A stretch of DNA of 64,000 nucleotides, from contig JAKFUG010000037.1 in the NCBI GenBank assembly GCA_021732785.1, positions 62,001 to 126,000 on the forward strand. The letters run 5' to 3'. Shown piece by piece: positions 49,731 through 57,035 of this stretch. The position numbers and the translations under genes are program-made. This DNA is from Planctomycetaceae bacterium (GTDB lineage Bacteria; Planctomycetota; Planctomycetia; Planctomycetales; Planctomycetaceae). The notes beneath the pieces are model-generated. The model had not been told where the DNA came from. It saw nothing but the letters and a program-made list of their open reading frames with translations, and ran no database searches. Position 1 is the stretch's first letter; each line of letters begins with the position of its first letter.

Positions 49731-49862
49731 CTCGTTCCCACGCTCCGCGTGGGAATGCCTGGCCGAGACGCTCCGCGACGTCTTCGGCGACAGACTAATG
49801 CGGAGCAGGCGACGCAGAGCGTCGCGAACGTGCGTTCCCACGCAGAGCATGTGAGCGAGTTC
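49731..49862. repeat. Repeat family 4, copy B
   Basis: CTCGTTCCCACGCTCCGCGT at the left, inverted CGTTCCCACGC-containing right half ending GAGTTCC, with CGACGCAGAGCGTCG near the centre. It fills the gap between the 80-aa gene and xerC and ends about 20 bases before the xerC start. Confidence 0.85.
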
Positions 49863-52397: not shown

Positions 52398-52694
52398 TTA
52401 AACCCGTGATTGCCAATGAAGAGGACCGCGACTGCCGTGGAGAACCGCGACGATTTCGACACTGCGGGAAGTTGTACGGAAGTAAACGACATACGGAAAA
52501 CGTTTCATCCGAACACGGCGAACGTCTTTGTAACCGGCGGCGTACAATTTCGGGAACTCACGAATGTGGTCAAACACAACATCGACGGCGGCCAGAAATT
52601 CCGCGCCCAATCCCGCTTGTCGGCCTTCATACCAATCGCGTCCTTCGGCCAGGTCCGTTTCGGCTTCCGGACGGACGATGAGCGGAGATGTCAT
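52398..52694 (-). CDS. ParE/RelE-type toxin of second toxin-antitoxin pair
   Basis: 98 residues. It starts at ATG 52694 overlapping the antitoxin stop (ATGA). The fold pattern is ParE/RelE: VRPEAETDLAEGRDWYEGRQ (first helices), AEFLAAVDVVFDHIREFPKL, then VRRVRMKRFPYVVYFRTTSR and a final VEIVAVLHGSRGPLHW. The basic, Arg-rich central strand and 'vlHgsR-p-W' end are family hallmarks. ParE proteins poison gyrase and RelE cleaves mRNA; the family cannot be told apart by eye. Confidence 0.88.
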   Translation of the reverse strand: MTSPLIVRPEAETDLAEGRDWYEGRQAGLGAEFLAAVDVVFDHIREFPKLYAAGYKDVRRVRMKRFPYVVYFRTTSRSVEIVAVLHGSRGPLHWQSRV

Positions 52695-52909
52695 TGTTCC
52701 CCACGCAATCGGGCTCGGACTTCTTCCCAGGGACGGCCTGCGGACGGATTCGCATCGGCGGCGGCTAACCGACGATCGAGTTCCTCGCGATGGCTTTGCG
52801 GGATGGGCTCGCTTTCGGGTGCCAAACTGTCCCAGATTTCCCCGATCAGTTGGAGGCGGTCTTCCGCACTGAGCCGATCAATTCCGAGTTCGCGCATGGA
52901 TGCTGACAT
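52691..52909 (-). CDS. ParD-like antitoxin (addiction-module component)
   Basis: About 72 residues from ATG 52909; ATG 52897 is a possible alternative start. The sequence SASMRELGIDRLSAEDRLQL continues IGEIWDSLAPESEPIPQSHR and ends with REELDRRLAAADANPSAGRP WEEVRARLRG, the 'addiction module component' family paired with ParE-like toxins. The gene before it on the minus strand is DUF1559, 77 bases away. It is the template against which the small protein at 55076 is compared. Confidence 0.86.
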   Translation of the reverse strand: MSASMRELGIDRLSAEDRLQLIGEIWDSLAPESEPIPQSHREELDRRLAAADANPSAGRPWEEVRARLRGEQ

Positions 52910-52986: not shown

Positions 52987-53982
52987 TCAAAACTCATTCA
53001 CGACTTCGCCCCCTTTGATCGTGGCGAGCGCGCGGTACAACCCGAGGGCCATGTTTTCGCCGAGAAACTTGACGCTGCCGTCGGCCAGACAGAAATGAGC
53101 ACCGCCGATGTGCCGGCTGCGGAAGCCGTTCGTGCCTTGCCAATCGCCCGAGGCGTATGGCGTGCCATTGGGGCGGCGGGCGTTGATCGGGAAATTCGCG
53201 ATCGCACACGCTTCGACAGAATGGGCCCACGCGAAGCCGATGCCGTAGTGCATGTCGCCGGGGCCGTTGGGATCGTAGGTTTGTTCGCCGACCATCGTCG
53301 TGTTGCTGAGGCCGTCGGTGACATCGCGCAGACGGACGACGTGGGCCCAGTTCATCGGGTAGAGAATGCCGTCGCCATTTTCCCACGGTTCGCAGCCATG
53401 CCCGCCGGTGCCGGGGTTGGCCCAATCCCCCCAGCAGAAGTTCGCCCCTTGCACGCCCTTGTAGTTGGTCATGCCGACCAGCGGGTTCGTGCGGAGGTAA
53501 TGCGAACGTTCGTTACGCGGACCGCCGATGACATCGGACGGGCAGAGATAGCACGCCAACGATATTGGAAAAACTGGGCTGTCTTTCAATGCGGAGATCG
53601 GGATCTTTCCTGTGTGCCACAATGGAGAAGCATCAACATACGGCAAAATTGAGGCCAACCAACTCCACGACTGTGAATCTTCGTAGGCATAGTTCCAGAC
53701 CGCAGAGTACGCATAATCACCATAGCGGTTGATCGGGAAAACGCCGTCATTAGTGTCGGCGTAATTATGCACCGCCAGCCCGATCTGTTTCAGATTGTTG
53801 CGGCATTGCGTCCGCCGGGCGGCTTCGCGGGCCTGTTGCACGGCGGGTAACAGCAGCGCGATCAGGATGGCGATGATTGCAATCACCACCAGCAGTTCAA
53901 TCAGCGTGAACCCGCATGATCCTCGTTCCCATGCTCTGCGTGGGAACGCACGGTCGCGACGCTCTGCGTCGCCGGGTTGCAT
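52987..53982 (-). CDS. DUF1559 protein with prepilin-like leader; start lies in a family-4 repeat
   Basis: About 331 residues. The prepilin motif G-FTLIELLVVIAIIAIL (Gly24, Phe25, Glu29) and the following QQAREAARRTQCRNNLKQIG are diagnostic for DUF1559, a pseudopilin-like family very abundant in planctomycetes. The domain ends with GGAHFCLADGSVKFL and VNEF. In most members a short 'M..RRGFTLIEL' leader is used. Here the leader before Gly24 reads MQPGDAERRDRAFPRRAWER, which is translated from the family-4 repeat at 53922-54050, so that the original start was probably lost. No Shine-Dalgarno is visible upstream of 53982. Confidence 0.78.
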   Translation of the reverse strand: MQPGDAERRDRAFPRRAWERGSCGFTLIELLVVIAIIAILIALLLPAVQQAREAARRTQCRNNLKQIGLAVHNYADTNDGVFPINRYGDYAYSAVWNYAYEDSQSWSWLASILPYVDASPLWHTGKIPISALKDSPVFPISLACYLCPSDVIGGPRNERSHYLRTNPLVGMTNYKGVQGANFCWGDWANPGTGGHGCEPWENGDGILYPMNWAHVVRLRDVTDGLSNTTMVGEQTYDPNGPGDMHYGIGFAWAHSVEACAIANFPINARRPNGTPYASGDWQGTNGFRSRHIGGAHFCLADGSVKFLGENMALGLYRALATIKGGEVVNEF

Positions 53983-54050
53983 CGTGCGATGATCATTCGC
54001 CGACGCGGAGCGTCGCCGCCAGGCATTCCCACGCGGAGCGCGGGAACGAG
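53922..54050. repeat. Repeat family 4, copy C, overlapping the DUF1559 5' end
   Basis: CTCGTTCCCATGCTCTGCGT at the left and CACGCGGAGCGCGGGAACGA at the right, with GACGCTCTGCGTCG inside. It spans from 11 bases after the lipoprotein stop to the DUF1559 leader codons. Same family as 49731-49862. Confidence 0.85.
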
Positions 54051-54662: not shown

Positions 54663-55079
54663 TCAGGGTTTCGGCCGGACATCAAACCAGCCTTGAGAAC
54701 GAAAGAAACAGACGTCGAATTCCATGAAGAAATTGACTTGTCCCAGGATGACGGAAACGGTGTCGGTCTGCGCCCAGGCCCATGCCAATCGAACCGGTGG
54801 AAAGCTTCCCACGACCGCGGATAACACAACGATCCGGGCGTCGACGGATGCCAGATTGCCCGACAATTGAACAGTCCGCGTTTCTTTGTTCCAATCGAAT
54901 CCCAGTTGGAGACCGAGCGAATAGGGCAGCACATTGATTGCCGCCCCGCTATCGACCAGCCCCGTCGTGGTGACCGGTTGACTGCCGATCAAATCCAGTG
55001 GCAGCATTGGAGCCAGGCTGGCTTGACCGAGAGACGGGTCACGCGCGACGTAAGAAAACCGCTGCGGTAAGAAACTCAT
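54663..55079 (-). CDS. Retropepsin-like (clan AA) aspartic protease, ATGA-coupled to a small upstream gene
   Basis: 138 residues from ATG 55079. The catalytic motif is TTTGLVDSGAAINVLPYSLG (DSG as in retropepsins), and VSVILGQVNFFMEFDV carries the second hydrophobic-hydrophobic-Gly element. One DSG per chain implies a homodimer, as in retroviral proteases. The gene overlaps the 69-aa gene by ATGA, so both are translated together. Bacterial relatives process proteins inside the cell or at the membrane; the substrate here is unknown. No signal peptide is visible. Confidence 0.8.
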   Translation of the reverse strand: MSFLPQRFSYVARDPSLGQASLAPMLPLDLIGSQPVTTTGLVDSGAAINVLPYSLGLQLGFDWNKETRTVQLSGNLASVDARIVVLSAVVGSFPPVRLAWAWAQTDTVSVILGQVNFFMEFDVCFFRSQGWFDVRPKP

Positions 55080-55285
55080 GCCGGGCCCTTGTCGTCCTCC
55101 AGCGCTTGCAACATCGCCGCGGCCGCAGTGAAGGCCCGGTCGGGGGACCAAATTGGATACGATTGACCCGGTTCAATGGGAGCAGCATCGGCTTGTTCCA
55201 GATCCTGAGCGAGGACCTGGATCAGCCGAATTTTGTCCAACCGGGAAAGTGATTGCACGTCCGGCCACACTTCGATGAGCGACAT
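55076..55285 (-). CDS. 69-aa protein upstream of the aspartic protease; antitoxin-like N-terminus
   Basis: ATG 55285 with AAGGAAC eight bases upstream. MSLIEVWPDVQSLSRLDKIR continues LIQVLAQDLEQADAAPIEPG. The segment LSRLDKIRLIQVLAQDLEQ aligns with LSAEDRLQLIGEIWDSLAP of the ParD-like antitoxin at 52691-52909 (L-S-D-K/R-L-I-L/I-D). The C-terminal half YPIWSPDRAFTAAAAMLQAL contains an acidic, flexible tail (EDDKG). The ATGA junction with the protease is the layout of a toxin-antitoxin operon. The role is not known; it could be an inhibitor, substrate or adaptor of the protease. Confidence 0.75.
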   Translation of the reverse strand: MSLIEVWPDVQSLSRLDKIRLIQVLAQDLEQADAAPIEPGQSYPIWSPDRAFTAAAAMLQALEDDKGPA

Positions 55286-55305
55286 CACCAAGTTCCTTTT
55301 CAAGT

Positions 55306-55641
55306 TCACGCCGGCTTGGCAGACGGATCGGGAATCTGCACCTGGATGGCGTCTCCTTCGACGCGGACGGGGTAGCAATCGGTGCGGATTTTCGATTTGG
55401 GATTGTCGAGCCACAGGCCGTCGCGGATGCAGAATTTCCACGCGTGCCAGGGACACATCACGGCGTCTCCTTCGACGTAGCCTTCGGCGAGCGACGCCCC
55501 CATGTGCGGGCAGGTGTCGTTGATCGCGAAGTATTCGCCGCCGCGCTGAAACACGGCGACAAGCCGTCCCTGCACGACGAATGCGCGGCCCTGTCCTTCG
55601 GGGATGTCGCCTACGATTGCCACGGTTTCAAAGTCGGTCAT
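55306..55641 (-). CDS. Rieske [2Fe-2S] protein, NirD-like
   Basis: 111 residues from ATG 55641. The cluster ligands are CPHMGASLAEG (Cys-x-His) and CPWHAWKF (Cys-x-x-His), the standard Rieske pair. The fold ends in 'YPVRVEGDAIQVQIPD'. It is close to the small subunit of nitrite reductase or to the ferredoxin-like Rieske protein of dioxygenases. No oxygenase or nitrite reductase large subunit is adjacent, so a general electron-transfer role is inferred. The gene ends 20 bases before the 69-aa gene and may be co-transcribed with it. Confidence 0.9.
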   Translation of the reverse strand: MTDFETVAIVGDIPEGQGRAFVVQGRLVAVFQRGGEYFAINDTCPHMGASLAEGYVEGDAVMCPWHAWKFCIRDGLWLDNPKSKIRTDCYPVRVEGDAIQVQIPDPSAKPA

Positions 55642-55925: not shown

Positions 55926-57035
55926 TCAGGACAGCGTCGCAGTTTGGCGCGAACAGCGGGTCAAGCGCGCGGGAACCGGTTCCGCAAGTTGTTTCGGGAC
56001 GGCGACGGCGGGGCAGCCTTCGGCGTCGGCGATCAGTTCCACCGGCGGGTCGGCGAGGTCTTCCGTGTAGAACCGCGCGCTCGGAAAGATGTCCGCGGGG
56101 TACGTGAAGTTCGGCAGCGATCCCAGCGCGATGCAGCTTTGGGCACCGACGGCACTTTCCAGCATCCCGCCCACCCAGCACGGAATCCCCGCGGCCTGGC
56201 AGGCATCGTGAATCTTCTTCGCCACCGTCAACCCGCCCACACGCCCCGGCTTGATGTTCACATACCGGCACGCTTTCAACGCCAGCGCCTGTTGCGTGTG
56301 CGGCAACCCGACAATGCTTTCATCGAGACACACCGGCGTCGCGATCGCGGCCTGCAACGCAGCATGATCCACGAGATCATCGTGCCGCAGCGGTTGTTCG
56401 ATCATCGCGAGATTCAACTCATCCACCTGTCGAAACAGCGGCAGATCATCGAGCCGGTAACCGCTGTTGCAATCGATGTGAACCGTGGCCGACGGAAAGG
56501 CTTCGCGCACGGCCCGCAGCATGGGCAGGTCCCAACCGGGACGGAACTTCAATTTGATACGGCGAAACTTTTTCGCGACGGCCCCTTCCACGGATTTCAA
56601 CAAATCGTCGATGGAATCCATCACACCGAAGTCCGCCCCGACGGCGAACCGATCTCGCGTGCCGCCGAGGAGTTGCGCGACGGTGCGTCCGGTCCGTTGC
56701 GATTCGAGATTCCACCACGCGGTGTCGAAGACGGCTTTCGCGAAGGGATTGCCTTTGAAGAGCGACAAGCACTGTTGCAAAGCGTCGCCGCTGGTGATGT
56801 CCTGATGCAGCAGCGCCGGACCGAACCAGTCGCGACAGATGGCGAACACGCCGCCGGCCCATTCGGGGCTGTAACACGGTGCCGCGAACGGGGCGGCTTC
56901 TCCCCATGCGGACAGCGACCCACTCGTCAATCGGCACAGCACGGCTTCAATCGCCGCATCTTCGCCGTACGCCGTCCGCCACGGATAAATGAGGGGCATC
57001 GCCACGTGAAACAGGTCGATCCGGTCGATACGCAT
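55926..57035 (-). CDS. menC: Enolase-superfamily protein, MenC/NAAAR-like
   Basis: 369 residues. The KxK motif is in RRIKLKFRPGWD, metal ligands in VHIDCNSGYRL (Asp), AMIEQPLRH (Glu) and VCLDESIVG (Asp), and the second catalytic Lys in YVNIKPGRVGG. These match o-succinylbenzoate synthase (menaquinone pathway) and the related N-acylamino acid racemases. Other men genes are absent from the window, so o-succinylbenzoate synthase versus racemase/dipeptide epimerase is not settled. The start ATG 57035 has a weak ribosome site. Confidence 0.85.
   Translation of the reverse strand: MRIDRIDLFHVAMPLIYPWRTAYGEDAAIEAVLCRLTSGSLSAWGEAAPFAAPCYSPEWAGGVFAICRDWFGPALLHQDITSGDALQQCLSLFKGNPFAKAVFDTAWWNLESQRTGRTVAQLLGGTRDRFAVGADFGVMDSIDDLLKSVEGAVAKKFRRIKLKFRPGWDLPMLRAVREAFPSATVHIDCNSGYRLDDLPLFRQVDELNLAMIEQPLRHDDLVDHAALQAAIATPVCLDESIVGLPHTQQALALKACRYVNIKPGRVGGLTVAKKIHDACQAAGIPCWVGGMLESAVGAQSCIALGSLPNFTYPADIFPSARFYTEDLADPPVELIADAEGCPAVAVPKQLAEPVPARLTRCSRQTATLS

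Follow-up and report, generated by a model that had tools for sequence, protein, structure and literature searches.

What is an aspartic protease doing in a gene arrangement that is otherwise that of a type II toxin-antitoxin pair? The question is raised by a 64,000-nucleotide stretch of DNA from a Planctomycetaceae bacterium (GCA_021732785.1, contig JAKFUG010000037.1, positions 62,001 to 126,000; hereafter the window), in which the gene of a 69-residue protein directly precedes, and overlaps with, the gene of a 138-residue retropepsin-like protease. An earlier note on this DNA had read the pair as toxin-antitoxin-like and as possibly a new type. Here we argue that the pair is quite probably a module of the antitoxin-effector type. 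It also seems likely that it is a module of the PDC-M52 kind, a family known as an entry in the PADLOC defence catalogue, and that it follows the antitoxin-effector plan of type II systems, with a protease of retropepsin fold in the place of the effector. The genomic evidence supports a toxin-antitoxin-like reading by way of the pairing, the N-terminal module of the small protein, module swapping, asymmetry, multiple copies, decay and patchy spread, whereas the aspartic protease fold places the effector outside the known type II toxin families.

Conservation of the gene pair

The reading of the earlier note would have been refuted by the lack of a conserved link between the small protein and the protease in other genomes, but such a link was found. 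A genome scan for the protease yielded 113 relatives, 80 of which were kept for analysis, from Planctomycetota, Cyanobacteriota, Chloroflexota, Thermodesulfobacteriota, Myxococcota, Chlorobiota and Pseudomonadota. In 78 of the 80, the protease is immediately preceded by the small gene, the two exceptions being one contig edge and one N-terminally truncated protease. Spacing between the paired genes ranges from -14 to +13 nucleotides, with an overlap (1-14 nucleotides) in 57 of the 78. Furthermore, among 244 cyanobacterial genomes sampled independently of the pair, 40 carry 65 full-length proteases, one to four per genome, and the small gene accompanies 63 of these. Both unpaired ones lack their N-terminus and are located behind other toxin-antitoxin genes or their remnants; unpaired proteases in general are mostly fragments or distant kin. 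All ten planctomycete loci are paired, with the pair present in 1 of 61 genomes of the window's own family and in about 13 of 199 of its class. Pairwise identities of protease and small protein are strongly correlated (r = 0.89, a value reached by 0 of 2000 permutations), the small protein evolving faster, with a mean identity of 40% versus 54% for the protease. The small gene and the protease gene are a true two-gene unit. Many cyanobacteria also carry distant clan AA proteins of approximately 205-240 residues without a small partner (G359:C10, G353:C274 and G382:C1:3411468, among others).

Could the protease instead be a housekeeping enzyme of maturation or stress, comparable to Pseudomonas RoaP and Rickettsia APRc, that is accompanied by a small chaperone, inhibitor or pro-piece and has no part in addiction or defence? 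Bacterial retropepsins with physiological roles do exist (mBio 2025 e00872-25, PMC12239564), and APRc has the nearest solved fold. However, the pair is absent from the other 60 genomes of the host family, is found in just the 40 cyanobacterial genomes mentioned above with frequent decay, and has no conserved neighbour. Such a sparse, multicopy and decaying distribution is the pattern of an accessory rather than a housekeeping element, and we regard this explanation as rather improbable.

The protease

As first noted, the 138-residue protein carries one DSG (residues 43-45), and a VILG is present at residues 110-113. D43 and G45 are invariant among 54 protease sequences, 43 of which read DTGA or DSGA, and a motif of two hydrophobic residues and a glycine ([LIVF][LIF]-G, with ILG in most) is found in all 54. 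This motif is followed by a nearly invariant NFFMEFDVCFYRS, the C-terminal ILGQxNFFMEFDVCF being nearly invariant. The Pfam family Asp_protease_2 matches at 2e-4, just under the cut-off, and a search of solved structures by the protease sequence gave no match. The AlphaFold2 model, with a predicted local distance difference test score (pLDDT) of 94 and a predicted template modelling score (pTM) of 0.86, has Rickettsia conorii APRc (5c9b) as its best Foldseek match (probability 1.0, E 4.5e-6), and retroviral proteases are also matched at 1.0. Based on this model we are confident that the protease adopts a retropepsin fold. It keeps all clan AA catalytic signatures, and by analogy with APRc and the retroviral proteases it should act as a homodimer. 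The likeness to APRc and other bacterial retropepsin-like proteases lies in the fold and the catalytic motifs, whereas the protease of the window is a soluble protein with a small antitoxin-like partner. To our knowledge, neither APRc nor RoaP has such a partner.

The in-frame stops found in several copies would also be expected of a dead or neutral passenger, i.e. of degenerate proteases that are retained by chance beside an antitoxin-like gene. Against this stand the catalytic D and G that never vary, the conservation of the C-terminal segment, the purifying selection seen on catalytic residues and the correlated divergence of protease and small protein, and we give the passenger explanation hardly any chance.

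The small protein as a relative of antitoxins

The 69-residue protein consists of an N-terminal helical module (residues 1-34) and a tail that reads YPIWSP..A..AA..ML..L, the consensus of the family being YPxWSPYxAxEAA. For the homolog at locus L023, helices are predicted at residues 4-11 and 15-36, after which the tail is disordered in the model and ends in a short helix. The 69-residue protein itself has no Pfam match, and its comparison by BLASTP with the antitoxin encoded nearby in the window gave no match either, so that a comparison of profiles was needed. When 53 small proteins were aligned by hhalign with 26 antitoxins of family PF09720, the match reached a probability of 93% (E 2.5e-7), compared with less than 0.5% for controls with reversed or column-shuffled profiles. 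The tail alone gave nothing against PF09720, and the homology to antitoxins is limited to the N-terminal module. Individual matches to PF09720, weak but more numerous than those to any other Pfam family, occur in 10 of the 53 small proteins. The alignment of LSRLDKIRLIQVL with LSAEDRLQLIGEI of the nearby antitoxin, on which the earlier note relied, is real at the profile level, since hhalign covers exactly that segment. That neighbour was rightly called an antitoxin, but instead of being ParD-like it belongs to PF09720/TIGR02574 and precedes a ParE-type toxin; the host genome holds 12 PF09720 matches in total.

Exchange of modules and tails

In the same genomes, the N-terminal module is also found in proteins encoded directly ahead of toxins that were confirmed by Pfam: PIN toxins (L199, L200, L204, L206, L220, L221, L229, L230, L231, L286 and L296), ParE toxins (L222 and L285), a ParE/YoeB toxin (L186) and a PemK/MazF toxin (L291). 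The tails of these proteins differ. At L186:2028-2650, a complete PDC-M52A-like protein including the WSPY is fused to a Phd/YefM-like segment before the YoeB/ParE toxin, and is a natural antitoxin chimera. Conversely, at L031:1587-2232 an N-terminus resembling a ribbon-helix-helix domain (FitA-like, E 0.009, below the cut-off) is joined to a WSPY tail ahead of the protease. These swaps in both directions indicate that the N-terminal module is exchangeable while the tail goes with the effector, which is the plan known from type II antitoxins. At L285, L287 and L292, the same N-terminal module has a tail that ends in ..SALETYLRT.SGVKHEQV, and a ParE-type toxin is seen in L285 and L287.

The tails also bear on a further explanation, in which the small protein is a functional or DNA-binding partner or a repressor, and the retropepsin a dedicated processing enzyme rather than a toxin. 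This would result in the same gene order and the same obligate link, and for the COG2856 protease, cleavage of an Xre repressor has indeed been predicted (PMC2701414). Small genes without a protease are common, as would suit a regulator. Yet the conserved tail tracks the protease and is swapped for other tails before real toxins, as in effector-binding antitoxins, and the small protein has no recognisable DNA-binding domain. We therefore consider a regulatory protease unlikely.

Asymmetry and decay

Within the 244 cyanobacterial genomes, 44 small-protein matches, 30 of them near full length, have no adjoining protease, as opposed to only two unpaired full-length proteases. An additional 14 protease matches are fragments, nine of which adjoin a small gene. 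In-frame stops interrupt 8 of the 65 full-length cyanobacterial proteases, and at 5 of the 80 relatives' loci there is a stop in the protease while the small gene is intact. This asymmetry, together with the decay of the protease, is what would be expected if the protease were costly and the small protein harmless.

Known and catalogued systems

That the pair might be an undescribed type, as the earlier note had it, is not supported, because both genes already match PDC-M52, a two-gene phage defence candidate (M52A + M52B) in PADLOC-DB 2.0.0. The 138-residue protease matches PDC-M52B with E 1e-43 over residues 6-137, and the 69-residue protein matches PDC-M52A with E 1.6e-5 over residues 1-29 only; PDC-M52A is matched by 49 of the 53 small-protein relatives as well (best E 7.3e-13). 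With both models matched in the same order, the window pair belongs to the same family. The PDC entries stand for candidate defence systems that are unpublished; PMC12988326 gives as their source a preprint on guilt by embedding (Payne et al.). PDC-M52 is a catalogue entry only, for which we found no description, mechanism or test in the literature: our search found no paper naming PDC-M52 and none combining 'retropepsin' and 'antitoxin', and Makarova 2009 (PMC2701414) does not list any pair with an aspartic protease. The antitoxin-module evidence, which connects a retropepsin with the plan of type II toxin-antitoxin systems, seems to be new here and was not found in the searchable literature.

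With type II systems (VapBC, ParDE, YefM-YoeB and the PF09720 modules) the pair shares the small gene in first position, the overlap, an antitoxin-type N-terminal module, a partner-specific tail, tail swapping and orphan antitoxins. It differs in its predicted effector, which is an aspartic protease and not an RNase, a gyrase poison or a kinase. The pairs of a COG2856 zinc protease and an Xre protein likewise combine a small protease with a short partner and are linked to toxin-antitoxin genes (PMC2701414), but theirs is a metalloprotease of another fold and the partner an Xre helix-turn-helix protein.

Proposed mechanism and role in defence

How might such a module work? The small protein would be made first, with its translation coupled to that of the protease, and would most probably bind the protease through the YPxWSPYxAxEAA tail, which may be flexible when free. 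The bound protease would be kept inactive, perhaps by a blocked active-site cleft or by blocked dimer formation. If the small protein is labile like other antitoxins, stress or infection could remove it, whereupon the freed dimeric protease would cut a cellular or phage target, leading to growth arrest or abortive infection. Binding, inhibition, toxicity, trigger and target are all predicted steps of this scheme; for the pair as a whole we infer toxicity, inhibition and antiphage action. That it constitutes a new toxin-antitoxin or abortive-infection class, in which a tail-swapped type II-style antitoxin restrains a killing or arrest effector with the fold of the human immunodeficiency virus (HIV) protease, we put forward tentatively, at somewhat less than even chances.

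An antiphage role is likewise possible, although we would not quite call it probable. At one locus (L071) the pair is located inside a type I restriction-modification locus, in the order HsdR, pair, unknown gene, HsdS, HsdM. At another (L075:966-8090) it has a partial hsdM on one side and a complete one on the other, the hsdM pieces forming flanking direct repeats of 92-94% that are perhaps the trace of an insertion by recombination. At a third (L051) it is found near ZorB and a PtuA/AriA-like ATPase. The restriction-modification genes near the pair were identified by motif. A simple inspection of 143 neighbours and 81 control proteins gave fewer defence matches in control regions of the same genomes, mostly to type II methyltransferases. 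As to the co-occurrence on plasmids or islands that the earlier note had suggested looking for, these three loci are clear examples of a defence setting, and the linkage to plasmids is weak.

Several other observations, like the small size of this comparison, weigh against the reading favoured here. Plasmid relatives are rare (3 of 72,556 records), phage records and viral contigs hold no relatives, and no defence island is recognisable around the window's own copy. The 98% match of the small proteins to a set of PIN-linked antitoxins (A4) is circular, as this set was chosen by the small-protein profile, which is not the case for the PF09720 match. In-frame stops in draft or metagenome-assembled genomes may partly be sequencing errors. 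Furthermore, the effector role of the protease is a prediction from sequence and model. Finally, structure prediction of the complex, which the earlier note had proposed, gave no confident docking: in an artificial single-chain AlphaFold2 model of the L023 pair, with its genes read through the stop, the pTM was 0.65 and the WSP motif was disordered.

If the proposed antitoxin-effector reading is true, aspartic proteolysis joins the effector chemistries of toxin-antitoxin and abortive-defence systems, and bacterial retropepsins, the roles of which are little known, gain a testable function. The module also shows how antitoxins can be re-aimed through exchange of their C-terminal tail, and the small protein is a candidate natural inhibitor for a retropepsin fold.

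Surroundings of the pair in the window

The features around the pair are collected in Table 1. The sizes of both proteins, the gene order and the ATGA overlap are exactly as first noted, and the spacing from the end of the Rieske gene to the small gene was confirmed.

Table 1. Positions in the window of the gene pair and of nearby genes
Feature	Position	Strand	Assignment or relation
Small antitoxin-like protein, 69 residues	55285-55076	minus	PDC-M52A family
Retropepsin-like aspartic protease, 138 residues	55079-54663	minus	PDC-M52B family
ATGA overlap, small-gene stop / protease start	55076-55079	minus	sequence
Rieske ferredoxin gene	55641-55306	minus	upstream of pair, 20-nucleotide gap to small gene
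PF09720/TIGR02574 'Unstab_antitox' antitoxin gene	52691-52909	minus	2.2 kb from pair
ParE-type toxin gene	52694-52398	minus	4-nucleotide overlap with PF09720 antitoxin gene

The Rieske gene was considered as a third component and rejected: of the genomes of the 80 relatives, that of the window is the only one in which it adjoins the pair, and because the linkage is not conserved it is not part of the unit. MenC-like and Rieske neighbours without the pair are kept only in genome G003 (L243), and the synteny of the relatives is too poor for a comparison with empty sites. Downstream of the pair are a short lipoprotein-like gene and a gene for a DUF1559-type protein. Gene content and nearest relatives agree with a planctomycete host. 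No sigma-70-like promoter was found near the pair, in a scan that is uninformative for this phylum. An enolase-superfamily gene (55926-57035, minus strand), which exceeds the TIGR01928 (o-succinylbenzoate synthase) cut-off with 255.5 versus 200.65 bits, adjoins the lone Rieske ferredoxin gene, with the same neighbours in L243. Lastly, palindromic GC-rich repeats (gttcccatgctctgcgtgggaac and similar) are located at 53920-54050, and a stretch near 49750 with a similar translation points to an interspersed repeat family.
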